40,056 nt of DNA from IMG/VR virus record IMGVR_UViG_3300044302_000554, positions 1 to 40,056 of that record; one strand, 5' to 3'. Below the pieces are notes generated by a model. It was not told the origin of the DNA, ran no database searches, and saw nothing but the letters and a program-made list of their open reading frames with translations. Shown here piece after piece: positions 23,347 through 39,973 of this stretch. Made by a program: the position numbers and the translations under genes. Source of the stretch: a virus. Numbering within the stretch: the first letter of the stretch is position 1; each line of letters starts with the position of its first letter.

Positions 23347-23955
23347 ATGGCGAAGCAAATCAACAAAATGTTAAAAGCAGAACTGGTCAACTATATCTCA
23401 GTCAATGGTGACATGGAAACTGATGGTCTTGGTGACATGTTAAAGAAGGACTTGGTAAAACTGGCTGAACAGATTTACGCACAGTCCTTACAGGAAGAGC
23501 CTGCGGATGTACCTGTAGAGAAATTAGATGCTGGTAATTCTAATTACTTTCACATGCACTTTCAGGCTGGCTTTCAGAAGAAGCTACAGGATGGCACAGA
23601 ACAACCACAGGATTGGGGTTGTGCAGTTACGTTTCGCAAACTTGACGATGGCAAATGGGTTTGTCACAAGTCCAGTACACGTAACTTAGCCTGGATGACT
23701 AAGCCGAAAGTTGTTTATGCAGGTCGTTATGAGCCTGGAGTAGAACGTGAGGTTATCTCGGTAACTGAACGTGACATCAAAATGTTGAAGTACTGGTTAA
23801 CGTCTGGTAGGTACGGCAAAACAGTATCTCAGTATTTTAGTAACAACGAGTTGCCAGAGTTTGACAAATGCGACATTGGTAAACCGATGTATACAGACGA
23901 GATGCAATCACGTGCGGTAGTTCAGGTGAAAGAAGGCGAAGCCATTCCATTCTGA
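23347..23955 (+). CDS. Early protein with HeH/SAP-like N-terminus and an IPF tip
   Basis: 202 residues. The first ~40 (LKAELVNYISVNGDMETDGL, then KKDLVKLAEQ) look like a short helix-extension-helix (SAP/HeH-like) DNA-binding motif, assigned by eye. A mixed alpha/beta middle is followed by a flexible tail ending GEAIPF. The last residues resemble the C-terminal tip of bacterial SSB. It is the first rightward gene, preceded by AAAGGAACGAT as ribosome binding site, and is followed at once by an intrinsic terminator, so it is probably made alone and early. Function unknown; a DNA-bound protein that recruits SSB partners is an inference. Confidence 0.7.
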   Translation: MAKQINKMLKAELVNYISVNGDMETDGLGDMLKKDLVKLAEQIYAQSLQEEPADVPVEKLDAGNSNYFHMHFQAGFQKKLQDGTEQPQDWGCAVTFRKLDDGKWVCHKSSTRNLAWMTKPKVVYAGRYEPGVEREVISVTERDIKMLKYWLTSGRYGKTVSQYFSNNELPEFDKCDIGKPMYTDEMQSRAVVQVKEGEAIPF

Positions 23956-23970
23956 ATACTACCACAAAGT

Positions 23971-24012
23971 AAAAACCCCCTGTTCGTTGTGTGGGGGTTT
24001 TTCCTTCTTTTT
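23971..24012 (+). terminator. Intrinsic terminator after the first early gene
   Basis: A perfect 10-bp stem, AAAAACCCCC with GGGGGTTTTT, encloses a 12-base loop and runs into a T-rich stretch (TTTTTCCTTCTTTTTC). The A-run on the 5' side makes it a possible bidirectional terminator. It lies 15 bases after the stop of the 202-aa gene. Confidence 0.9.
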
Positions 24013-24037
24013 CATAAAACATACATAGGAGTACGAT

Positions 24038-25138
24038 ATGCGTAGACTTGGACCAGATGGGCATGTGAACGTCATTCATGATGCTGAAGGTGTACTTATA
24101 CATCGAGAGCGTGTGATTGGCGACACAGATTGGCATGAATACGGCTGTAAAATGCTTGTGAAGTTTTACAACACAGTTCATCCAGACGAAAACATTGTCA
24201 TGCGTGACATTAAGCATTATGTAGACATTGATTTATTCAAGCGTATTACAGGTGCTAATGTTCATTACGTAATACAATACCTTACACATTACGAAGGTAA
24301 TGCAATCATGACTGAATATCGTGATTGGTTATTAGATATTGCAAATGCCAAGGCAGAACAAAGTCCTACAAGCCTTGGTAACGCTCCACAAGCTGTCGAA
24401 GCATGGCGCAAAAACAAACAAACCAACAAGTGGGAAATGTACATGAAACCTACTGTTTGGCGTAACTGCATGAACAGCATGAAAAGCAAAGGTATCAACC
24501 TAGAACGTGCGCCACGTACTGGTGAACCTGATGAGTGGTATACAGAGCATACAAGCCAAAGTCCCAAGACTGCTGGCGAGATGATCAAGCCAGATTGGAA
24601 CAAGTACAGGCTTATCAATCACTTTCATGCAGGTGACCTTACAAGTCATTGGGATGAAATCGACATTACTTTCAATGAGCATGGTGCTTCAGCCATGCCA
24701 GTAAAGTATTTGCGTACCGATTTAGATTATTGGGAACGTAGTGAGTCATTTGCAGAGCAGAATCTAAACCAACTGACCACAACACAAGAATGGAATGCTT
24801 GGATTGATGGTCGTGAGGTTGATCTCTTCCAGAAGGTGCAGGATGCAATCGCAGATGGCTTGCCTGTACATGAGGTTCTTACCGAGTATGAGCAATATTG
24901 CATCGAAGAAGAGATGTTCCAGCGTGAAGCACGTGTCGAAATAGCCGTACAGGACATTGATCGTCCGTACCAGCACGAAAACATATACAGTACCAACGTA
25001 AAGCCAGCCTTTAGGAAGTACACATCCAGAGAATTACAACGCATAGAAGAAGAACAGCTTCAGCGTGAACCCCTTGATTCGTATCCAGGTGGTTTGGTTC
25101 GTAATACTGGCTACGAAGTACAGCCTATGCCGTTCTAA
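24038..25138 (+). CDS. Early protein, unrecognised, ending in MPF
   Basis: 366 residues, no membrane segment, rich in Trp, Tyr, His, Glu. Starts MRRLGPDGHVNVIHDAEGVL behind the ribosome site TAGGAG. It has a helical first half, an acidic middle (EEEMFQREARVEIAVQDIDR) and a proline-rich end GYEVQPMPF. No catalytic motif or family was recognised. Terminators stand on both sides (after the 202-aa gene and after this gene), so it forms a one-gene unit. The Pro-Phe end is shared with three other early proteins. Base composition is richer in G+C than its neighbours. Confidence 0.72.
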   Translation: MRRLGPDGHVNVIHDAEGVLIHRERVIGDTDWHEYGCKMLVKFYNTVHPDENIVMRDIKHYVDIDLFKRITGANVHYVIQYLTHYEGNAIMTEYRDWLLDIANAKAEQSPTSLGNAPQAVEAWRKNKQTNKWEMYMKPTVWRNCMNSMKSKGINLERAPRTGEPDEWYTEHTSQSPKTAGEMIKPDWNKYRLINHFHAGDLTSHWDEIDITFNEHGASAMPVKYLRTDLDYWERSESFAEQNLNQLTTTQEWNAWIDGREVDLFQKVQDAIADGLPVHEVLTEYEQYCIEEEMFQREARVEIAVQDIDRPYQHENIYSTNVKPAFRKYTSRELQRIEEEQLQREPLDSYPGGLVRNTGYEVQPMPF

Positions 25139-25144
25139 GAGAAT

Positions 25145-25191
25145 GGGAATAACCCCCCTGCGTTCCTTGAGGGGGTTATATCCCTTGTTTT
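25145..25191 (+). terminator. Intrinsic terminator after the 366-aa gene
   Basis: Arms 25145-25157 and 25171-25184 form a 13-bp stem (GGGAATAACCCCC against GGGGGTTATATCCC) with one bulged T, a 13-base loop, and a TTGTTTT run directly after it. It is placed seven bases after the stop codon of the upstream gene. Confidence 0.85.
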
Positions 25192-25216
25192 AATGTTAAT
25201 TCTAATCTGAAAGGAA

Positions 25217-25507
25217 ATGATAAAACTATGCGAATTTGTTGTTCAGTTCTTTGATGAAAAAGGCTGGACCCCTAAAAGGCTAATGATCTGGTTGGCTGTT
25301 GGTTGGTTCTTCCAGATCGTAGCTGGTATCGGTTTAATCACATATTTAGTTTCACAAGCGTACTTAACGTACCAGAAAGGAAAAGATGGCGGTAATGAAA
25401 GATCAAGTCAACGAGATGCTCTCAGGGATTGGCCTGACAGTTCAGGAAATATCAGAGCAGGAGACAGTACAGAAGGTAAAACACGAAACAGAACGTGGGT
25501 TAATTAA
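25217..25507 (+). CDS. Small membrane protein, early
   Basis: 96 residues with one clear hydrophobic segment (about 22-50, WLAVGWFFQIVAGIGLITYL) after an acidic start and a charged disordered C-terminus. A ribosome-like AAGG lies only 2 bases before the ATG, which is closer than usual; no better in-frame start exists. Its last 122 bases overlap the next small membrane gene in a different frame, so its C-terminus may be partly a by-product of the overlap. Two adjacent overlapping one-TM proteins suggest an envelope-acting pair, for example in superinfection exclusion; this is an inference. Confidence 0.6.
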   Translation: MIKLCEFVVQFFDEKGWTPKRLMIWLAVGWFFQIVAGIGLITYLVSQAYLTYQKGKDGGNERSSQRDALRDWPDSSGNIRAGDSTEGKTRNRTWVN

Positions 25508-25655
25508 CGTGGCAAGTTTTGTTAAAGACACGTTTCTCGGTTTTGGCCTCGGCATTTTACTTACTGTATATATGACTTTGGCAGTACCTTCGTTGAATAT
25601 ATATCGATCCTATAAGGGTAATAAGGGTTTGGTAAAACATAAGATTAACCTTTGA
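25386..25655 (+). CDS. Small membrane protein overlapping the previous gene
   Basis: 89 residues. The N-terminal 45 are helical and charged (QVNEMLSGIGLTVQEISEQE), and a hydrophobic segment lies at about 48-68 (DTFLGFGLGILLTVYMTLAV), with a basic tail KGLVKHKINL-like at the end. A strong ribosome site (AAAGGAAAAG) precedes the ATG. It lies inside the 3' part of the 96-aa gene in another frame. The layout is not that of Rz/Rz1 spanins, because neither has a lipobox. Function unknown. Confidence 0.65.
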   Translation: MAVMKDQVNEMLSGIGLTVQEISEQETVQKVKHETERGLINVASFVKDTFLGFGLGILLTVYMTLAVPSLNIYRSYKGNKGLVKHKINL

Positions 25656-25660
25656 TCACT

Positions 25661-25701
25661 AGAGAGTGCTGGGCGAGTCCTGGCACTCTTTTATTTTTTT
25701 T
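25661..25701 (+). terminator. Intrinsic terminator before the main early operon
   Basis: AGAGTGC (25663-25669) pairs with GCACTCT (25683-25689), extendable by two pairs, over a 13-base loop. It is followed by TTTTATTTTTTTT, a strong U-tract. It is placed just downstream of the overlapping membrane pair and upstream of the long early operon. Confidence 0.9.
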
Positions 25702-25731
25702 GGTGGTCGAGCAAGGACCGTAAGGATTTTT

Positions 25732-25974
25732 ATGGCTAAGGAAATGAATGTTATTGGTTTAGACCCAGAAGCTTATACGCAGTCTTTACTTAACAAAATA
25801 GAGAAATTGGTAGGTTTAAAGGAGGCGTTGATTGAAATGTTTAATCACAACATTGATTGGCACGCACAAACTGTTTGCCAAGAAGAATGTCATAAAATTA
25901 AGCATGAAATTGAAGCAATGTTAGAAGAAATAAAAGAGAGGCTAAAAACCTTAAAGGAGTATCATCAATCATGA
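25732..25974 (+). CDS. Small coiled-coil protein
   Basis: 80 residues from the ATG of MAKEMNVIGLDPEAYTQSLL, chosen because AAGGA lies 5 bases before it; an upstream ATG falls in the terminator hairpin. Nearly all helix, with heptad-like Leu/Ile spacing and a lysine-glutamate-rich second half. His/Cys residues (HAQTVCQEECHKIKHE) could bind metal. No family recognised. It overlaps the next gene by ATGA, so it opens the coupled early operon. Confidence 0.6.
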   Translation: MAKEMNVIGLDPEAYTQSLLNKIEKLVGLKEALIEMFNHNIDWHAQTVCQEECHKIKHEIEAMLEEIKERLKTLKEYHQS

Positions 25975-26195
25975 AATGTAAAGTATGTGGTGAAGTTCCT
26001 TTTATACCTATGAATCCAGACTATTGCTCGCTTGCTTGCAAGGCAGAAGATGCAACTGCAAGCTATGAGGCGAGTGTACTAAACGCATGGAATATCGTAC
26101 ATGATCACATTCGAGCTTCAATGGATGGAATACAATCTCAAATTAGGAATGACATCGTTAGAGGAAATAAAGGTCCTAGAAGCGATCAGGACTAA
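25971..26195 (+). CDS. Small Zn-ribbon-like protein
   Basis: 74 residues beginning MKCKVCGEVPF, with CKVC near the start and CSLAC at residues 19-23: two Cys pairs spaced as in a minimal zinc ribbon. The rest is a helical region rich in Ala and Asp. AAAGGAG lies 11 bases before the ATG. It overlaps the stop of the coiled-coil gene by ATGA, and its own end is overlapped by the next gene. No partner is known. Confidence 0.55.
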   Translation: MKCKVCGEVPFIPMNPDYCSLACKAEDATASYEASVLNAWNIVHDHIRASMDGIQSQIRNDIVRGNKGPRSDQD

Positions 26196-26370
26196 TGGGA
26201 TTGAAATTAGTGAAATAGAATTTAATACAGTTAAAGATACTGTAGAAAGGACTTACAGACTATTTAAAGAAATTGTTGATTTATTTATATATGAATTGGA
26301 AAAACAACAGGGCAAAGACCCTAAACAATTATCATTTTTAAAGGATGACAATGGCAACATTGATTTGTAA
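26149..26370 (+). CDS. Small helical protein
   Basis: 73 residues from MTSLEEIKVLEAIRTNGIE, a start I prefer over an ATG 16 codons upstream that lies deep inside the previous gene and has no ribosome site. The preferred ATG also has only AGGA directly adjacent. Helical, Glu/Lys/Ile-rich, with an acidic end KDDNGNIDL. No family recognised. It overlaps both neighbours in the early operon. Confidence 0.45.
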   Translation: MTSLEEIKVLEAIRTNGIEISEIEFNTVKDTVERTYRLFKEIVDLFIYELEKQQGKDPKQLSFLKDDNGNIDL

Positions 26371-27193
26371 AGATAGAGTCACAATGAGTGACTTACAACA
26401 GATGAGTACACCTCCAGCAACGTCTACTCATTTTCCTATTCCTCATCACGAAGCACTAGGTGAAGTTATAGACCAAATGGGTTCTATGAACTTTGAAATG
26501 AAAGGCGAGCCACAAATTGGTATATCTCATGAGGGTAATCGTTGTTACTGGTTAATGGAAGTTGCTAATGACACATTGGCAAGAGATTGGTCAACCATTA
26601 TTGGTGGCAGAAACAGTCATGACAAGAGCTTTAGTTTTAGGCTTTTAGGTGGTTTTAACGTGTTTATTTGTGAGAACACACAGGCAACTGGTGAGGTTTC
26701 AGTTACTTTGAAACACACAAAGAACATTGTTGGCAATTTAAAGCCAAGAGTAACCAAAGCACTTAATGCAATAACGCACCAAAACTTAGTACAAACAGAA
26801 CGTATTGATGCTTATAAAAAGTATTTACTTCCTGATGAAGATTACGAAAATAAAGCGATCAGAGATGATCAGGGTGCTATTAAAGCCATTAAACGTAGTT
26901 ACGAAAGTTCACCTTATATACATGATTTTGTTATCAGGAGCATGTATCAAGGTGTTATATCGCCTAGTTCAGTCAAACTGGTACTTGATGAATGGCGACA
27001 GCCACGATACGAAGAGTTCTCAGCACGTAACGTGTGGTCGTTAAGTAATGCATATACAGAAGCATTCAAAAAGTACAGCAATCCAGAACAACTCTTTTCA
27101 AGAGGGATCAAACTAACAACTATGATGGATACATTAGCTGGTTACGAAGCACCTCCAATGCCTCAAACAGATGAAGAAATGGAGGTTGCATGA
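26351..27193 (+). CDS. DUF932-like phage/plasmid protein
   Basis: 280 residues from the ATG of MATLICKDRV, which has AAAGGA about 5 bases before it. Another ATG two codons upstream is also possible. The block GRNSHDKSFSFRLLGGFNVF, then ICENTQATGEV, and the C-terminal LYQGVISPSS-type region with FSARNVWSLSNAYTEAFK match the DUF932 family found in phages and plasmids, typically annotated only as phage/plasmid-like protein. Function is not established. It is followed by a 64-aa gene in an ATGA overlap with a GGAGG ribosome site. Confidence 0.72.
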   Translation: MATLICKDRVTMSDLQQMSTPPATSTHFPIPHHEALGEVIDQMGSMNFEMKGEPQIGISHEGNRCYWLMEVANDTLARDWSTIIGGRNSHDKSFSFRLLGGFNVFICENTQATGEVSVTLKHTKNIVGNLKPRVTKALNAITHQNLVQTERIDAYKKYLLPDEDYENKAIRDDQGAIKAIKRSYESSPYIHDFVIRSMYQGVISPSSVKLVLDEWRQPRYEEFSARNVWSLSNAYTEAFKKYSNPEQLFSRGIKLTTMMDTLAGYEAPPMPQTDEEMEVA

Positions 27194-27384
27194 GACAGGA
27201 ATTCGTTATTCTTGACTCTATGGAGCAAAGCATCATTTACAAGGCTTTAAAAGAGTCTAATTTGATGGAAAAGTTGGCTAATAAGGTTCTACACGGTACT
27301 TCAATACCCGAAGATCACGTTGTTGAGGTATTGCCCGAGCATAAGGGTCCAGAAGTCAATAAAACATCCGATAAACCATTTTAA
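27190..27384 (+). CDS. Small protein ending in KPF
   Basis: 64 residues starting MRQEFVILDSMEQSIIYKAL, helical first half and a disordered C-terminal half (VVEVLPEHKGPEVNKTSDKPF region), ending SDKPF. The ATG overlaps the upstream stop (ATGA), and GGAGG lies 5 bases before it. The last two residues, Pro-Phe after an Asp-containing flexible tail, match the pattern of SSB-type C-terminal tips. No family recognised. Confidence 0.6.
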   Translation: MRQEFVILDSMEQSIIYKALKESNLMEKLANKVLHGTSIPEDHVVEVLPEHKGPEVNKTSDKPF

Positions 27385-27405
27385 CATATAGTACTCCGTT
27401 GGGGT

Positions 27406-27456
27406 GGTTGACATTACTTGCTAGGTATTATAACATTACTTAGTAATTTGTCAACC
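27406..27456 (+). promoter_or_regulatory. Promoter with operator-like repeats before the HTH gene
   Basis: A perfect -35 TTGACA at 27408-27413 lies within GGTTGACA, which is repeated inverted as TGTCAACC at 27449-27456. A -10 candidate TATAAC (spacer 15) or TAACAT (spacer 17) falls between. ACATTACTT occurs twice in the same direction (27411 and 27434), and ATTACTTAGTAAT at 27435-27447 is a perfect palindrome. This arrangement suggests an autoregulated promoter covered by its repressor, most simply the small HTH protein encoded just downstream. Confidence 0.65.
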
Positions 27457-27472
27457 CCTTCAAAGGATTTTT

Positions 27473-27694
27473 ATGGAACGTCATTTCAAAACTCTACGTG
27501 AAGAATGCAAGTTCTTTGGTGTGCGTATGCAGACAATTAGCGACCAATTAAAAATGACACAGCCATATGTTTCCCAAGTTTTGGCAGGTAAACGCCAGAA
27601 CTCGGCAATCGTAGGGCTATGTATAGACCTATTGAAGCAACGCAAACACGAACTAAAAGAAAAACTATGCCATGACAACATTCGCACCACATGA
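27473..27694 (+). CDS. Small Cro/CI-type HTH repressor
   Basis: 73 residues. The HTH is visible as MQTISDQLKMTQPYVSQVLA followed by GKRQNSA, typical of the XRE/Cro family recognition helix; no dimerisation or cleavage domain follows. A ribosome site AAAGGA precedes the ATG. It stands directly behind a promoter with operator-like repeats and overlaps the nuclease gene by 23 bases. It probably controls the recombination/replication genes downstream and its own promoter. No integrase is seen in the window, so a lysogeny role is not supported. Confidence 0.8.
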   Translation: MERHFKTLREECKFFGVRMQTISDQLKMTQPYVSQVLAGKRQNSAIVGLCIDLLKQRKHELKEKLCHDNIRTT

Positions 27695-28640
27695 TACTGA
27701 ATCTAGATCAATAGGTATTGGTACGTCTGATGCTTCCTCTCTCATGGGTGAAGGTTATAAAACCAAGTTCCAATTGTGGGAAGAAAAAACTAATCAAGTA
27801 CAACAGTCAGATGATTTTATAGAAAGAGCATTTTGGGGTACAGAACTAGAAGAAACTATTCTACGCAACATCCCAAAATTGATGCAACAACGTGGTTTCC
27901 AGTTTGATGACCATAAAATAAGAAAAGATGGCAAAACATACTGGAACAAAGACTTACTTATTAATGACCAGCCATTTATATATGGTCATTTAGATGGCAG
28001 GATTGGGCTAGAAATAGCAGAAATTAAGTTTCAATCAGGCTTTTCTTACAAAGCTTGGGAAGAGTATTACGTTCCTAGATATTTCTACTGGCAAGGTATA
28101 TGTGCTTTGGCAGTAGTTCCTAACGCTCCATCATGGCGAATTTATTCGTTATGCAATGGCGAAGTCGTTTGGCGTACTTTGCATCGTGAAGAAGTCCAAG
28201 ACGACATTGATAAATTCTTGGCAAAAGCTGAAGAATTTTGGCGTAAAAACGTGCTTGAAAAAGTACAACCTGAACCTGAAAGTGAAGAGGATCTTATTCG
28301 TGCATACGATAAAGATAATCTCAAAACTGTTGTTGCAATGCCACATGTCATGGACAAGTTGAAGCAAGCAGAACAGCTTAAGAATCAGGCTGACTTAATC
28401 ATGTCACGTGCCAAGCGTTTGAAGTTTCAGGCAAAGCTTGCATTAGGCGAAGCTGATGAAGTTACAGATGCAGATGGCAATGTTTTGTATACCTATAGGT
28501 ATGTTAAACCCAAAGTGACTCTTGACTCAAAGCTAGTCAAAGAGTTGTATCCACAGGTTTATGAAGAATGTTCCAAAACAGGTGAACCATCTCGTAGATT
28601 TGTGAACAAACAAAAATCTGAACCAGAATTTGAATTATGA
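27672..28640 (+). CDS. YqaJ-type (lambda exonuclease-like) recombination nuclease
   Basis: 322 residues. The fold is marked by GIGTSDASSLMG (15-26), FWGTELEE (54-61), YGHLDGR with Asp108, AEIKFQ with Glu117 and Lys119, and YFYWQG with Gln141, i.e. the catalytic D...E-x-K core of the PD-(D/E)XK superfamily YqaJ/lambda-exonuclease class. The C-terminal part is helical and ends EPEFEL. It presumably resects DNA ends for the annealing step. The following 340-aa gene starts in an ATGA overlap, as is usual for nuclease/annealase pairs. Confidence 0.85.
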   Translation: MTTFAPHDTESRSIGIGTSDASSLMGEGYKTKFQLWEEKTNQVQQSDDFIERAFWGTELEETILRNIPKLMQQRGFQFDDHKIRKDGKTYWNKDLLINDQPFIYGHLDGRIGLEIAEIKFQSGFSYKAWEEYYVPRYFYWQGICALAVVPNAPSWRIYSLCNGEVVWRTLHREEVQDDIDKFLAKAEEFWRKNVLEKVQPEPESEEDLIRAYDKDNLKTVVAMPHVMDKLKQAEQLKNQADLIMSRAKRLKFQAKLALGEADEVTDADGNVLYTYRYVKPKVTLDSKLVKELYPQVYEECSKTGEPSRRFVNKQKSEPEFEL

Positions 28641-29659
28641 CAAAACAAGTAAGTGTTGCGGTACAACAACATGCAGGACAAATTGCTGATGTAATAAGCA
28701 TGAAAGCTACTGTTCAAGATGTGTTGAAATCACAGATGCAGGAAGACGTTCATTACGGCAAGATTCCTGGTACTGGTGACAAGCCTACGTTGCTTAAATC
28801 AGGTGCAGAAATGCTACGTATGGTCTTTAACATGAGTACCATTTGTGAAGCAACTGATGTTACTGTTGATACAGACGACAAAGGCCATAAAACCTACGAA
28901 ATCTGTATGCATATCCTGAATAAAGATGGAATCAAAGTAGCTACAGGTCTTGGCACTTGTTCAACACTAGAATCCAAATACAAGTATCGTAGTCAGCTTA
29001 CGGATCGCACAGTTCCAAGTGAATATTGGAATGAACGTGACAAAGCACTACTTGGTGGTCCACAATACAGTCCCAAAAAAGTCAAAGGTAAGTGGCTTAT
29101 TGCTGAACGTGTGGAACATGACAATCCTGCTGACTATTACAATACAGTCAAAAAGATGGCTAAGAAACGTGCAATGGCAGATGGCATCTTGACTGCAACT
29201 TGTTCATCTGACTTGTTTACACAGGATCTTGAGGATTTGAATGCCAACTTTCAACAGTACGATGGTGTTCAAACCGAAGAAAAAAAAAGTCCAAAAATCA
29301 TAGTGGACGAGGAACAGGACACGAACACCATTAATTCTGAAGCTGTTGCCAATGCTAGTCCTTCACAACAGGCCAAAGAATGGCAAAAACAAATAGATGA
29401 AGATTCATTTGGAGATGAAATCAACAAAGAAGTATTACCAATCCCTGTAAGTCTTCATAACGGCATGGCTAACAATGAAACTGTTCAAGCCATACTTGGA
29501 GATATGTATGAATACAGACTTGATTGGTCAGATTTTGTTAAAAACTGGCCTAAAATCTCATCAGCTATGATGCAACTCAAAGAAGATTATCAGGATCTCC
29601 TTATTGAGTACAAAGATGAGATTAAGGCTTATCACAAAAGGAACAAAGGCATGTTATGA
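28637..29659 (+). CDS. Conserved phage recombination-module protein, likely annealase partner
   Basis: 340 residues. The blocks YGKIPGTGDKPTLLKSGAEM (40-59), GTCSTLESKYKYR (106-118) and NTVKKMAKKRAMADGILTAT (169-188) followed by CSSDLFTQDLEDL are those of a conserved phage and mobile-element family found beside YqaJ or RecT-type genes. I know it only as hypothetical. By position after a nuclease it is the best candidate for the single-strand annealing protein (RecT/Erf/Rad52-like role). This is inference from context and not from a recognised fold. The C-terminal 100 residues are acidic and linker-like. Confidence 0.65.
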   Translation: MTKQVSVAVQQHAGQIADVISMKATVQDVLKSQMQEDVHYGKIPGTGDKPTLLKSGAEMLRMVFNMSTICEATDVTVDTDDKGHKTYEICMHILNKDGIKVATGLGTCSTLESKYKYRSQLTDRTVPSEYWNERDKALLGGPQYSPKKVKGKWLIAERVEHDNPADYYNTVKKMAKKRAMADGILTATCSSDLFTQDLEDLNANFQQYDGVQTEEKKSPKIIVDEEQDTNTINSEAVANASPSQQAKEWQKQIDEDSFGDEINKEVLPIPVSLHNGMANNETVQAILGDMYEYRLDWSDFVKNWPKISSAMMQLKEDYQDLLIEYKDEIKAYHKRNKGML

Positions 29660-29856
29660 GTAGTTACGACCCATTTGAAGTAGTACCTTCACAGCATCCA
29701 GACGATAAAGAGTTAGTTCAGCGGAAAGAAATTTTAGAAGCAATAGAAAAAGTCTCAAACTTTCTTGAAAAAGCTGATTACGTTAACTCTAAGTCGTTAG
29801 TTAATGCACTTGATGAAATATATCATTACGTACAGGAAGGAGATTATGGGTCGTGA
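29656..29856 (+). CDS. Small helical protein
   Basis: 66 residues, acidic, starting MSSYDPFEVVPSQHPDDKEL, helical, without recognised motifs. The ATG overlaps the stop of the 340-aa gene (ATGA), and its end overlaps the next gene by 11 bases. Part of the coupled early operon. Function unknown. Confidence 0.5.
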   Translation: MSSYDPFEVVPSQHPDDKELVQRKEILEAIEKVSNFLEKADYVNSKSLVNALDEIYHYVQEGDYGS

Positions 29857-30097
29857 CAACTTAAAATACAGGCAACGTCCTCTTACATATCACAGTATTG
29901 AGTTCAACAGGTATAAAGGCAAAGACGTAGGATTTAAACCATCACATGATGAAATAGACAAAGCTGTAGAAAGTTTTTTAGCTAAAGGTGGTTCTATTGA
30001 AAAATCAGAACTTGGTGCAAATCCTACACTTGATAACGATGAAAAACCTTTGTCCGAAGAAGAAATACAAAACATTTTAGAAGAATGGAAAATATGA
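29846..30097 (+). CDS. Small phage protein, unknown
   Basis: 83 residues from the ATG of MGRDNLKYRQRPLTYHS, preferred because GGAAGGAG precedes it. An upstream ATG within the previous gene has no ribosome site. The end (HDEIDKAVESFLAKGGSIEK) resembles a short segment found in other small phage proteins (FLxKGGxI), with no known role. A proline-poor acidic tail follows. It overlaps the next tiny gene by ATGA. Confidence 0.5.
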   Translation: MGRDNLKYRQRPLTYHSIEFNRYKGKDVGFKPSHDEIDKAVESFLAKGGSIEKSELGANPTLDNDEKPLSEEEIQNILEEWKI

Positions 30098-30210
30098 TTT
30101 ACGATTACGAATGTCCATCATGCGGTAGAGAAATCACAGAAAAAGAATCTTATGATCCTAATTTTTATTGTGAAGAATGCGAAATGTCATGCTTGGAGGA
30201 ATTATTATGA
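30094..30210 (+). CDS. 38-aa zinc-ribbon microprotein
   Basis: A 38-residue protein too short for most gene finders. It starts MIYDYECPSCGREITEKESY and continues to CEECEMSCLEELL. The two Cys pairs CPSC (residues 7-10) and CEEC (26-29), spaced by 15 residues, are those of a rubredoxin-knuckle zinc ribbon, and a fifth Cys lies at 33. Its ATG overlaps the preceding stop and its stop overlaps the following ATG, in ATGA junctions on both sides. GGAGG within its end serves the next gene. This frame support makes it a strong small gene. A regulatory or structural role is inferred. Confidence 0.7.
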   Translation: MIYDYECPSCGREITEKESYDPNFYCEECEMSCLEELL

Positions 30211-30368
30211 AAGAATATGTATCAGAAGAAGAATGGGATGCAGTTGACGATTTCTTTAGAGAACAATACAAGGAAAAACACCCAATACGTTATTGGATTG
30301 AAGAAATTAGGTTCAAATTAGACATGATTAAGCGCAAATTTACGAGGTCAGATGACATCCCCTTCTAA
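30207..30368 (+). CDS. 53-aa protein with an exact SSB-like DDIPF tip
   Basis: 53 residues from the ATG of MKEYVSEEEWDAVDDFFREQ, chosen for the GGAGG about 7 bases before it and the ATGA overlap with the zinc-ribbon gene. An upstream ATG would overlap that gene. It has an acidic helix, a basic linker (DMIKRKFTRS) and the ending SDDIPF. E. coli SSB ends DDDIPF, and this tip is the docking site for PriA, RecO, RecQ, ExoI and others. The protein has no OB fold, so it could act as a free copy of that tip, tying up or recruiting SSB partners. Its end also encodes the start of the next gene. Confidence 0.7.
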   Translation: MKEYVSEEEWDAVDDFFREQYKEKHPIRYWIEEIRFKLDMIKRKFTRSDDIPF

Positions 30369-30693
30369 TGGTCTTAAAGAAAAGCTAGATGTTATTGCTA
30401 ACGCATTGGAAAAGAAACTAAGCCCATACGCAAAAGGCAATCAATACAAACTGGCAAAGCTTTTGAATAGATATAGCATGGCAGACATTGTAGCTACTGC
30501 TAAATACGTTAATAATAAATTCAAAGGCAGTAATTATTACGAGTGGTCACGCAAACCTAACGTGTTTTTGCAAGACAGGTTTGACGAGTTCCATGAAGAA
30601 ATGTTACGTAGAACACCACAGTTCTTAAAAGAAATAACCAGAACATCAAACAAAGAACATGCCGAAGATAGGAACGAACAACAAAGACTCTGA
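30352..30693 (+). CDS. Probable replication accessory protein upstream of the DnaC-like loader
   Basis: 113 residues starting MTSPSNGLKEKLDVIANALE, mostly helical. It has a stretch AKLLNRYSMADIVATAKYVN and an aromatic patch (NYYEWSRKPNVFLQDRFDEF) but no recognised family. The ATG is read within the DDIPF codons of the previous gene, with GAGG 6 bases before it. It precedes a DnaC-type helicase loader by overlap, the place usually held by a replication initiator, so that role is considered, but its size is small for it. Confidence 0.5.
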   Translation: MTSPSNGLKEKLDVIANALEKKLSPYAKGNQYKLAKLLNRYSMADIVATAKYVNNKFKGSNYYEWSRKPNVFLQDRFDEFHEEMLRRTPQFLKEITRTSNKEHAEDRNEQQRL

Positions 30694-31474
30694 TCCAATG
30701 GTCGTATTAAGGAGGATAATTGAAAAAGTTAAAAAAACACCACGCCCAAGAAAAGTTGATAGCTGGAAAGCAGGAACAAAAGAAGAAACTACGGATCGCC
30801 CTTTTGAAGAATTTACTAGAAACGGACTTAGCTATGTCAGGTTCTTTGAATTGGAGCAAAGTGAACAAGAAAAGCTTGATAAGTATAGAACCTACCTTGA
30901 AGAAGCAGGACTCTTTTCTCACAAGGATATTACCTTGGATTCTATTGGTAATTATATATTTTTAGAACAACAGAAAGCAGATCCTTCAAGGCTTTACACT
31001 AAAATTAGACAAAGTAAATCATTGGTATTGTCTGGACCTCCAGGTACAGGTAAAACTACGTTAGCATGTGCTATAATGCGTAAATGCTATGACCAAAACA
31101 AAAGTATTGTTATCAAGCGTTGGTATCATTGGTTGGTAAAAATGCGGGGTGGAGCTTATCAAGACGATAAAATCCAAGACATGGAACAGTTTCTTCGCCC
31201 TGCTGTTAAGTGTGACTATTTGCTTATTGATGAGCTTGGTACAGATGCTAAACAATCAGCTACAGCGTTTGAGCAAGAACAGTTGATGTACATTATTTCG
31301 GAAAGACATGGTAACGGAAAACCTACAATCATCACTACCAACTTGACCAGAGAAGAAATCAATAATATATATAGTGAAGCTATATATCAAAGAATGGCAG
31401 ATCAGAAAACAGGTTATTGGTTTGAATTTGATAACGAACAGAATAGAAGGAAAGTTATTGATTTTCCTAGATAG
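30659..31474 (+). CDS. DnaC-like helicase loader (AAA+ ATPase)
   Basis: 271 residues. Walker A is GPPGTGKT at 126-133, Walker B LLIDELG at 188-194, sensor 1 TTN at 226-228, with an arginine-finger candidate at Arg245 in AIYQRMAD. This is the DnaC/IstB-type loader set, with an N-terminal partner-binding region before residue 110. It would load the host replicative helicase onto phage DNA. No phage helicase or polymerase is encoded in the window, so host machinery must follow. The first ATG overlaps the 113-aa gene; a second ATG 13 codons later is possible. Confidence 0.85.
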   Translation: MPKIGTNNKDSDPMVVLRRIIEKVKKTPRPRKVDSWKAGTKEETTDRPFEEFTRNGLSYVRFFELEQSEQEKLDKYRTYLEEAGLFSHKDITLDSIGNYIFLEQQKADPSRLYTKIRQSKSLVLSGPPGTGKTTLACAIMRKCYDQNKSIVIKRWYHWLVKMRGGAYQDDKIQDMEQFLRPAVKCDYLLIDELGTDAKQSATAFEQEQLMYIISERHGNGKPTIITTNLTREEINNIYSEAIYQRMADQKTGYWFEFDNEQNRRKVIDFPR

Positions 31475-31485
31475 GAGTCCTATCT
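31469..31485 (+). terminator. Perfect 8-bp inverted repeat over the DnaC-like stop
   Basis: AGATAGGA and TCCTATCT flank one G, forming a 7-bp stem with a 3-base loop in RNA. It spans the last codons and stop of the loader gene. No U-run follows, so it is not a classical terminator. It may protect or mark the 3' end of the upstream message, or be an entry boundary for the structured RNA that follows. Confidence 0.45.
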
Positions 31486-31514
31486 CATGCTCCAAGGAAT
31501 TGATTAGCTGTCCA

Positions 31515-31661
31515 TGAAGTCTTAGTGCAAAGGTGTCGCCTCTCTCTCCTTAGATAAAAGGATGCCTAACCGATAAGGCGTTGTAAAAGTTTTACGCTAA
31601 TCGCTTTTACGACCATAGTTAGTTCATCTATGCTCATAGCCGAAAGGTCGCTAAGACTTCA
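31515..31661 (+). ncRNA. Structured RNA candidate closed by an 11-bp stem
   Basis: TGAAGTCTTAG (31515-31525) pairs perfectly with CTAAGACTTCA (31651-31661) and encloses 125 bases with no convincing gene. Inside are local stems: TCCTT/AAGGA (31547, 31558); GCCT/AGGC with an 8-base loop (31564, 31576); a 10-bp stem with one G-U, GTTGTAAAAG/CTTTTACGAC (31580, 31604); CATAG/CTATG (31614, 31628); and a 3-bp stem capped by GAAA (31639-31648). This is a multi-branched fold and lies between the loader and the 99-aa gene, on the operon strand. It matches no riboswitch or ribozyme I could recognise by motif. It may be a cis-acting leader, a processed small RNA or a replication element. Confidence 0.65.
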
Positions 31662-31689
31662 CTTCTTGAATTACTTATTAGGATACTGT

Positions 31690-31989
31690 ATGGTAATAGA
31701 ACAAAGCAATACAAAATGGGAACCAGTAAATTCAGATGAAGCACAAAGAATGTACGTGCAAAGACTAAAAGTTGATACAGGATACATATACCATATACGA
31801 AGATTTACAATAGTTACTGATGTCGGTGGACATACTAGAGAATACGCAGAATATGAGCAGTTCATACATGGAAGCGCAGATCATACCATTGGGCAAACCG
31901 AGAATGACTCAACGAGATCGGTGGAAAAAGAGACCAGTGGTGACGAGGTATCACGAATACGCAGATCGGCTAAGAGAAAACGCCGATAA
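31690..31989 (+). CDS. 99-aa protein overlapping RusA
   Basis: 99 residues from the ATG of MVIEQSNTKWEPVNSDEAQR, chosen for AGGA about 6 bases before it; upstream starts lie in the structured RNA. Predicted beta strands (YIYHIRRFTIVTDV) are followed by an acidic then basic tail, much of which is encoded in the region overlapping the RusA frame by about 120 bases. No family recognised. The long overlap makes its C-terminus uncertain. Confidence 0.5.
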   Translation: MVIEQSNTKWEPVNSDEAQRMYVQRLKVDTGYIYHIRRFTIVTDVGGHTREYAEYEQFIHGSADHTIGQTENDSTRSVEKETSGDEVSRIRRSAKRKRR

Positions 31990-32230
31990 GCAGAACTTTT
32001 TGCTTGGACCAAAGCTTGAAATCCAATTCTGGATGCCAATGCCACAGTCATGGAGCAAAAAGAAGAGGTTAGAGCATTTACTCAAGCCTCATAAACAAAG
32101 GCCTGATTTAGATAATCTTATAAAAGCTGTTCAAGACATTCTACTGAAAGAAGATTCAGCAGTATGGTATGTCACAGCAACAAAAAGATGGTCTGAAGAA
32201 GGGAAATTAGTAATTTTTAATCTTAAGTAA
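31868..32230 (+). CDS. rusA: RusA-type Holliday junction resolvase
   Basis: 120 residues from the ATG of MEAQIIPLGKPRMTQRDRW, the usual start of the family; longer starts also exist upstream. KQRPDLDNLIKAVQDIL (77-93) holds the RusA acidic triad at Asp80, Asp82 and Asp90. The C-terminal half has the ATKRW strand. It would resolve recombination or replication intermediates before packaging, in line with the nuclease/annealase module. It overlaps the 99-aa gene and precedes SSB by nine bases. Confidence 0.85.
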   Translation: MEAQIIPLGKPRMTQRDRWKKRPVVTRYHEYADRLRENADKQNFLLGPKLEIQFWMPMPQSWSKKKRLEHLLKPHKQRPDLDNLIKAVQDILLKEDSAVWYVTATKRWSEEGKLVIFNLK

Positions 32231-32239
32231 AGGTAAAGT

Positions 32240-32620
32240 ATGTCAAGTATATACGTGGCAGTGGGTTATGTTGGTACTGATATAGAGTACGGACAAACAA
32301 ACAACGGCAATAGTTTTGCTAACTGGTCAATGGCTATACGATCTAATCCAAAGCAGGAAGAACCAGATTGGTTTGATTTTGTTGCGTACAAGTCACTTGC
32401 TGACATTGTTCACAAACACGTAAAGAAGGGCAACCTTCTTCATATAACTAGAGCTTACCCTAGAAATCGTAAGTGGACTGACAAAGAAGGCAATCCACGC
32501 AAATCCACAGAGTTTATTGTGAATGATGTTGAACTTATGCCAAACAAGAGGGCAGATAAGGACAACTCGTCACAAAAGACTGAGGATATTAAAGACGATA
32601 CTATGCCGTTTGAACTCTAG
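32240..32620 (+). CDS. ssb: Single-stranded DNA-binding protein (SSB) with PFEL end
   Basis: 126 residues. An OB fold is shown by VGYVGTDIEYGQTNNGNSFA, FANWSMAIRS, then WFDFVAYKSLADIVHKHVKK and GNLLHITRAY. A short acidic linker leads to DDTMPFEL. The tip has the MPF core of an SSB C-terminus but is capped by Glu-Leu. In E. coli SSB the free carboxylate of the last Phe is contacted by partners, so the cap could weaken or redirect binding to host proteins. A ribosome site AAAGGTAAAG precedes the ATG. Confidence 0.88.
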   Translation: MSSIYVAVGYVGTDIEYGQTNNGNSFANWSMAIRSNPKQEEPDWFDFVAYKSLADIVHKHVKKGNLLHITRAYPRNRKWTDKEGNPRKSTEFIVNDVELMPNKRADKDNSSQKTEDIKDDTMPFEL

Positions 32621-39396: not shown

Positions 39397-39626
39397 ACGA
39401 TCACCAGAGTCCCATTTACAGTAAGAGTTCCAGTACTAGAAATTTGCACTGGCCCAGCCATTACCGCATTTTCATCTGCACTTATAGTTACAGCAGAGTT
39501 AATTGTTGCAGGGTTTCTTAACAATCCTGATACAGTTGACGACACATGGCCTGTAACACCAGAATCATCATGATTAACTGTAGTAAAATCACCTTGAGCA
39601 ATTGAACCAGTTCCTTGTCTTTTCAT
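39393..39626 (-). CDS. 77-aa tail-associated protein (complete copy)
   Basis: 77 residues from the ATG of MKRQGTGSIAQGDFTTVNHD, preferred over an upstream TTG because it makes an ATGA overlap with the 116-aa gene. Rich in Thr, Ser, Val and Gly; the end SSTGTLTVNGTLVIV is beta-like. A cut copy lies at the left edge of the window. Like the neighbours, probably a virion surface or tail protein; no family assigned. Confidence 0.7.
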   Translation of the reverse strand: MKRQGTGSIAQGDFTTVNHDDSGVTGHVSSTVSGLLRNPATINSAVTISADENAVMAGPVQISSTGTLTVNGTLVIV

Positions 39627-39973
39627 GCGTTCTCCAATACTGAAACTATGACTTCTGCTTTGTTCGATACAGAACAAGCACCATGTATTTCTGATGTATC
39701 TGTAATAACAATTTTTCCATCAACAAGATCCAGGTTGCCTCCTACTGGAATTGAAGTGCTTTTACAGATATGAATTTTGTTATTACTTGAATCAACCATT
39801 GCAATATCGACTGTTACTGTAGCCGTATGCACATTTGCTACATTTAATCCAATAACAACGTGGCCTTTGTCGGTTGTTACTGCACTAAGATCTGTACCAA
39901 TTTGAGAAGATGTTCCATGATTCCCAATTGATGTTTCTGATAATGCTGATTTTCTAGTTACAAATTTTGCCAT
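39623..39973 (-). CDS. 116-aa fibre-module protein (copy B)
   Basis: 116 residues, the variant of the gene at 177-527: same start MAKFVTRKSALxxTSIGNHG, with SE in place of GQ at 12-13 and MVDSSNNK in place of IVASDNSK at about 59-66. Most other differences are conservative, as expected of a functional protein. ATGA overlap with the 77-aa gene. Family unknown; probably a virion component. Confidence 0.75.
   Translation of the reverse strand: MAKFVTRKSALSETSIGNHGTSSQIGTDLSAVTTDKGHVVIGLNVANVHTATVTVDIAMVDSSNNKIHICKSTSIPVGGNLDLVDGKIVITDTSEIHGACSVSNKAEVIVSVLENA

Follow-up and report, generated by a model that had tools for sequence, protein, structure and literature searches.

Pro-Phe C-termini on four early proteins of a phage: possible SSB-type docking tails

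Four early proteins of one phage end in Pro-Phe (PF), as bacterial single-stranded DNA-binding proteins (SSBs) do. Do these ends act as SSB-type interaction tips, or do the four proteins share them by chance? The bacterial SSB C-terminal tip (SSB-Ct) reads DFDDDIPF and comes with an interaction network. The window analyzed here is an entire IMG/VR virus record (IMGVR_UViG_3300044302_000554) of 40,056 bases with a G+C content of ~38%; its source is an uncultured, probably marine phage, and the encoded terminase shares 53% identity with its counterpart in Pelagibacter phage Baldr. Terminases 53–54% identical to that of the window are also encoded on L135 and L138, which are assigned to the MAG 'Verrucomicrobia bacterium TMED56' and are probably phage contigs that were binned wrongly. 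A direct repeat of 300 nt with 98% identity lies close to both window ends (2–301 and 39448–39747) and may represent terminal redundancy or circular closure; the ORFs at 177–527 and 39623–39973 have their C-terminal end in common, so the repeat may reach further.

The early region and its Pro-Phe ends

The early region lies on the plus strand, begins at 23347 and holds ~21 genes. Pfam and PHROG matches identified a RecE/YqaJ-like exonuclease (27672..28640), which ends SEPEFEL, and a DnaC-like helicase loader (30659..31474). The region also encodes a RusA-like Holliday junction resolvase (31820..32230), an SSB (32240..32620) and, adjoining the exonuclease, a PHROG 10048 protein (28637..29659) that, judging from its position, is a probable single-strand annealing partner.

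The first-pass annotation had read the C-termini GEAIPF, VQPMPF, SDKPF and SDDIPF on four plus-strand genes, DDTMPFEL on the SSB, and no PF end on any minus-strand virion protein; the translations confirmed all of these, and PF ends no minus-strand protein of the window. The first early gene (23347..23955) encodes a 202-aa protein of no family that ends KEGEAIPF (PF codons 23947–23952), and the gene at 24038..25138 a 366-aa protein, also of no family, that ends YEVQPMPF (PF codons 25130–25135). A 64-aa protein ending KTSDKPF (PF codons 27376–27381) is encoded at 27190..27384, where the 5' end of the gene overlaps the 3' end of a DUF932 gene. The fourth protein, of 53 aa, is encoded at 30207..30368 and ends TRSDDIPF (DDIPF codons 30351–30365); its start is an ATG preceded by GGAGG, and the ORF lister places the start at 30177. 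Ile-Pro-Phe is thus found in two of the four and the exact DDIPF in one. All four present a terminal Pro-Phe with a free carboxylate, which is absent in the SSB (PFEL).

That four such ends stand out, as had been claimed, was upheld, but the 0.2% by which chance had been gauged was not. PF ends 15 of the 2565 genes in the pooled comparison set (0.58%), a value above 0.2% because SSB-type proteins are part of that set; composition predicts 0.12%, and genes flanking viral loci reach 0.63–0.97%, all of these being approximate frequencies from gene sets made with a simple longest-ORF caller. Among the 1139 genes flanking 80 viral DDIPF loci, PF was the C-terminal dipeptide with the strongest over-representation (11 ends versus 1.4 expected by composition). 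Six other phage records yielded 3 PF ends in 303 genes, one each in Baldr, in Vibrio phage IME234 and in an antisense ORF, and terminase loci from GTDB genomes, with the window excluded, yielded 2 in ~535 genes. At the 15/2565 background, the probability of at least four PF ends among 21 genes is ~6e-6, a value uncorrected for the picking of the window out of a large scan, and that of any dipeptide occurring at least four times is 0.004 per window. The PF excess within the window is real, but the scan that led to the window is of unknown size.

Such an excess could still arise by coincidence combined with selection, that is, as four unrelated PF ends in a window singled out of a large scan for them. 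By chance, some dipeptide would occur at least four times per 21 genes in 0.4% of windows, so a scan of many windows meets such sets. Against this stand the low probability for PF itself and the conservation of one tip across three phages, described below. We consider coincidence a real possibility, and nearly as likely as the docking tails proposed below.

Conservation and charge of the tips

Conservation in homologues, on which the first-pass annotation had made its proposal depend, was mixed: all four tips are kept in the near-identical relative L002 and one in the diverged relative L010, in which another is absent. The comparison covers three relatives that reach any tip. Homologues of the 23347 protein in L002 and L003 (89% identity) both keep GEAIPF, in relatives too close at this gene to tell much; in L004 (66% identity), the contig ends ahead of the tip. 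The 24038 homologue of L002 is 98% identical and has an identical end, whereas that of L010 (24% identity overall; E 4e-8 for the matched segment) is without the tip-bearing C-terminal extension and ends LADAV. This tipless homologue favors coincidence, and the PF end of the 24038 protein may well be incidental. Evidence against coincidence comes from the 27190 protein, in which SDKPF is identical in the window, L002 and L010 with tip codons that differ by synonymous changes; L010 keeps TSDKPF, with three replacements among the seven residues upstream of SDKPF.

The 30207 homologue in L002, at 75% identity, ends NDDIPF. However, the gene that follows (30352..30693, plus strand) has its ATG inside the codons of this tip (GAT GAC ATC CCC TTC TAA, 30351–30368), and its first codons (MTSPSN) lie over those of DDIPF. 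The DDIPF codons are therefore constrained twice, and since the DNA across the overlap is identical in L002 and also provides the start of the second gene, the conservation of DDIPF tells little about the tip. The end of the 30207 protein is partly dictated by the gene overlap, which again favors coincidence.

One-sequence and alignment scans of viral contigs found no homologues beyond L002, L003, L004 and L006/L010. Zero homologues were found in a scan of GTDB genomes with the 23347 alignment, and tblastn against 50,697 phages gave no match for any of the four tipped proteins, nor for their homologue in L010. A protein that ends NPHDAH takes the place of the 23347 protein in L010 and was considered as a case of tip loss, but its match to the 23347 protein was weak (hhalign E 0.05) and it was not counted. 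Near the 27190 gene, a promoter-like TTGACA followed by TATAAC lies within an inverted repeat (TTGACATTACTTGCTAGGTATTATAACATTACTTAGTAATTTGTCA, 27405–27455), 5' of an HTH-like gene at 27473, and this repeat is mostly kept in L002 and L010. The DUF932 gene is intact in the window and broken into two frames (129 + 147 aa) in L002 (5277–6118).

Charge also favors coincidence. In the pockets that receive SSB-Ct, the Phe enters a hydrophobic hole, its carboxylate meets a basic lip, and the Asp side chains are received by a basic ridge (PMC10164576). Acidic residues within about the last eight positions are expected of an SSB-Ct tip, and the window tails are not acidic: the net charges of their last 12 residues are −1, 0, 0 and +2, compared with a mean of −3.2 (sd 1.3) for 80 DDIPF-tipped viral proteins among the matches listed. 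In the ten residues preceding the last five, the window tails have +1, 0, 0 and +3, the DDIPF-tipped viral proteins (n = 80, among the matches listed) −1.4, and other genes +0.1. Three of the four tips are without acidic residues suited to the basic ridge, and in the 30207 protein the acidic DDIPF directly follows the basic KRKFTRS. By charge, the window tails look like ordinary C-termini with a PF end.

SSB-type tips on phage proteins other than SSB

The notion that phage proteins other than SSBs can bear SSB-type tips was borne out, as primases, Sak4 and helicases were found carrying them. A scan of viral contigs for GATGAYATHCCNTTYTAA, the in-frame DDIPF followed by a stop, found at least 120 loci, of which 118 were tallied by PHROG and Pfam; nearly all of the matches listed terminate an open frame. 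The tallied carriers (118 of the matches listed) are mostly ssDNA-binding proteins, including SSB and several unrelated families, and the matches listed also include AEP primases, a Sak4-like annealing protein, a CobS-type AAA ATPase and the small family phrog_1811. Some loci have more than one tip. L047 encodes a canonical SSB with DDIPF plus a primase-helicase with TTDDCPF, and L052 a 204-aa DDIPF protein plus a DnaB-like helicase with EELPF. In L018, L028, L085 and L090, a 507-aa AEP-type (TOTE-type) primase with DDIPF lies beside a 264–265-aa protein with DDDIPF, which belongs to phrog_2402 in L018. These primase loci resemble the window in having several tips per early region, some of them on non-SSBs, but their carriers are recognized enzymes with acidic tails, unlike those of the window.

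Tips are gained or lost within single families. In named phages, homologues of these primases terminate in KGSPF, in SEF or in PPPFV, the last being a capped tip. The small marine phage family phrog_1811 (L158–L167) ends DDDIPF in pelagiphage HTVC033P and environmental contigs and AEPF in ACG-2014b, and the tip is missing in the other homologues sampled. With tips both present and absent inside one family, the transfer of tips from one phage protein to another becomes open to study, regardless of the window.

Known systems offer partial parallels. Like bacterial SSB-Ct, the window proteins have a free terminal Pro-Phe, but the carriers are not recognized SSBs, most of their tails are neutral or basic, and a disordered acidic linker is not apparent. 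T7 gp4 and gp2.5 have acidic tails that dock on T7 DNA polymerase; a terminal Phe is reported for gp2.5 and is shared by gp4. The tail of the gp4 helicase-primase docks to basic patches on the polymerase (PMC12593628). T7 resembles the window in that several of its early proteins end in an aromatic docking tail (putative in the window), and differs in that its tails are acidic and sit on replisome proteins, whereas the window carriers are without assigned function. In phage HK620, the SSB tail NDYPPF is required for stimulating Sak4 annealing (PMC5928155). Here a phage PF tip serves a phage, not a host, recombination protein, but it is on the SSB, in which the window has PF followed by EL.

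We tentatively favor the reading that some of the PF ends are SSB-Ct-type docking tails, the best candidates being the 23347 and 27190 proteins and possibly the 30207 protein; plausibly, phage replication or recombination is served by weak docking tails of SSB type on one to three of the four proteins. We infer binding, partner and function as follows. The terminal Phe and its carboxylate would enter the pocket of a host or phage protein that binds SSB tips, and docking would bring the small early proteins to the replication/recombination apparatus of the phage: the YqaJ exonuclease, the annealing-type partner, the DnaC-like loader, RusA and the SSB. The logic would be that of the shared tail of T7 gp4 and gp2.5 and of phages with tips on both an ssDNA-binding protein and a primase or helicase. 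This reading draws on the PF excess, the conservation in L002, the invariant SDKPF, the tipped non-SSB proteins, the multi-tip loci and the HK620 tail; it is weakened by the non-acidic tails, the tipless 24038 homologue of L010, the overlap at 30207 and the small number of relatives. If the tips work, the SSB-tip code would reach beyond SSBs to small early proteins of phages, which would thereby have a simple, testable route for docking on host enzymes of genome maintenance or for blocking them.

Alternatively, at least one of the tipped proteins could be an unrecognized ssDNA-binding protein with an ordinary tip, the 23347 protein being the foremost candidate. The prevalence of varied, unrelated ssDNA-binding families among the DDIPF-tipped viral proteins (matches listed) is consistent with this, as are the sole PF-ended proteins of Baldr and IME234, which belong to PHROG families (862 and 6599) that recur among tipped proteins. 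However, none of the four carriers has a Pfam or PHROG match, the 23347 profile is without similarity to the tipped DUF669-type and phrog_18154-type families, and the phage already encodes a canonical SSB. The AlphaFold model of the 23347 protein is poor (pLDDT 48) and has no significant fold match, a result that a novel fold could still accommodate. Altogether, an unrecognized ssDNA-binding protein seems unlikely. Foldseek matches to the 23347 model were weak and were set aside, and the model of the 24038 protein (pLDDT 31) was too poor for use.

The phage SSB and its Glu-Leu end

The SSB (32240..32620, plus strand; PHROG 44) matches PF00436 with 58 bits against a cut-off of 26 and is thus canonical. 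It ends DDTMPF-EL, the PF codons being followed by GAA CTC TAG (EL codons 32612–32617). Several SSB homologues align as far as residue 124, the F, and the best of these ends DDDIPF. A single T-to-G change, TAA to GAA, would add exactly Glu-Leu.

The first-pass annotation had proposed that abundant free tips occupy host PriA, RecO, RecQ and ExoI while Glu-Leu stops the SSB from recruiting them. The 53-aa protein with the exact DDIPF would suit such a scheme, and so would the two residues beyond the F up to which several homologues align; the alpha-carboxylate of a terminal Phe is itself bound in the pockets, so two further residues would be expected to lower the affinity. Flooding or sequestration of host repair proteins is nevertheless not supported, with three of the four tips non-acidic (tails neutral or basic), the DDIPF preceded by basic residues and overlapping the following start codon, and the diverged 24038 homologue lacking its tip. 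Deliberate capping fares no better: PFEL is known from one SSB sequence, as L002 stops short of the SSB gene, and one stop-loss mutation suffices to explain it. The literature covered by our searches contained no report of phage-made free SSB-tip decoys. We regard decoys combined with a cap as improbable, and it is more improbable still that the tip moved from a stop-loss-capped SSB to several small early proteins as soluble decoys or recruiters of host repair and restart enzymes that bind SSB tips.

Least probable of all is another role for the PF end, such as shielding the protein from tail-specific proteases of the host, exposing it to them, or binding a phage-specific partner unlike SSB pockets, which the neutral tails and the different common end of the exonuclease and SSB (EFEL/PFEL) would fit. 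The FEL that recurs in these two proteins is kept in the exonucleases of L002 and L010, both of which end SEPEFEL.
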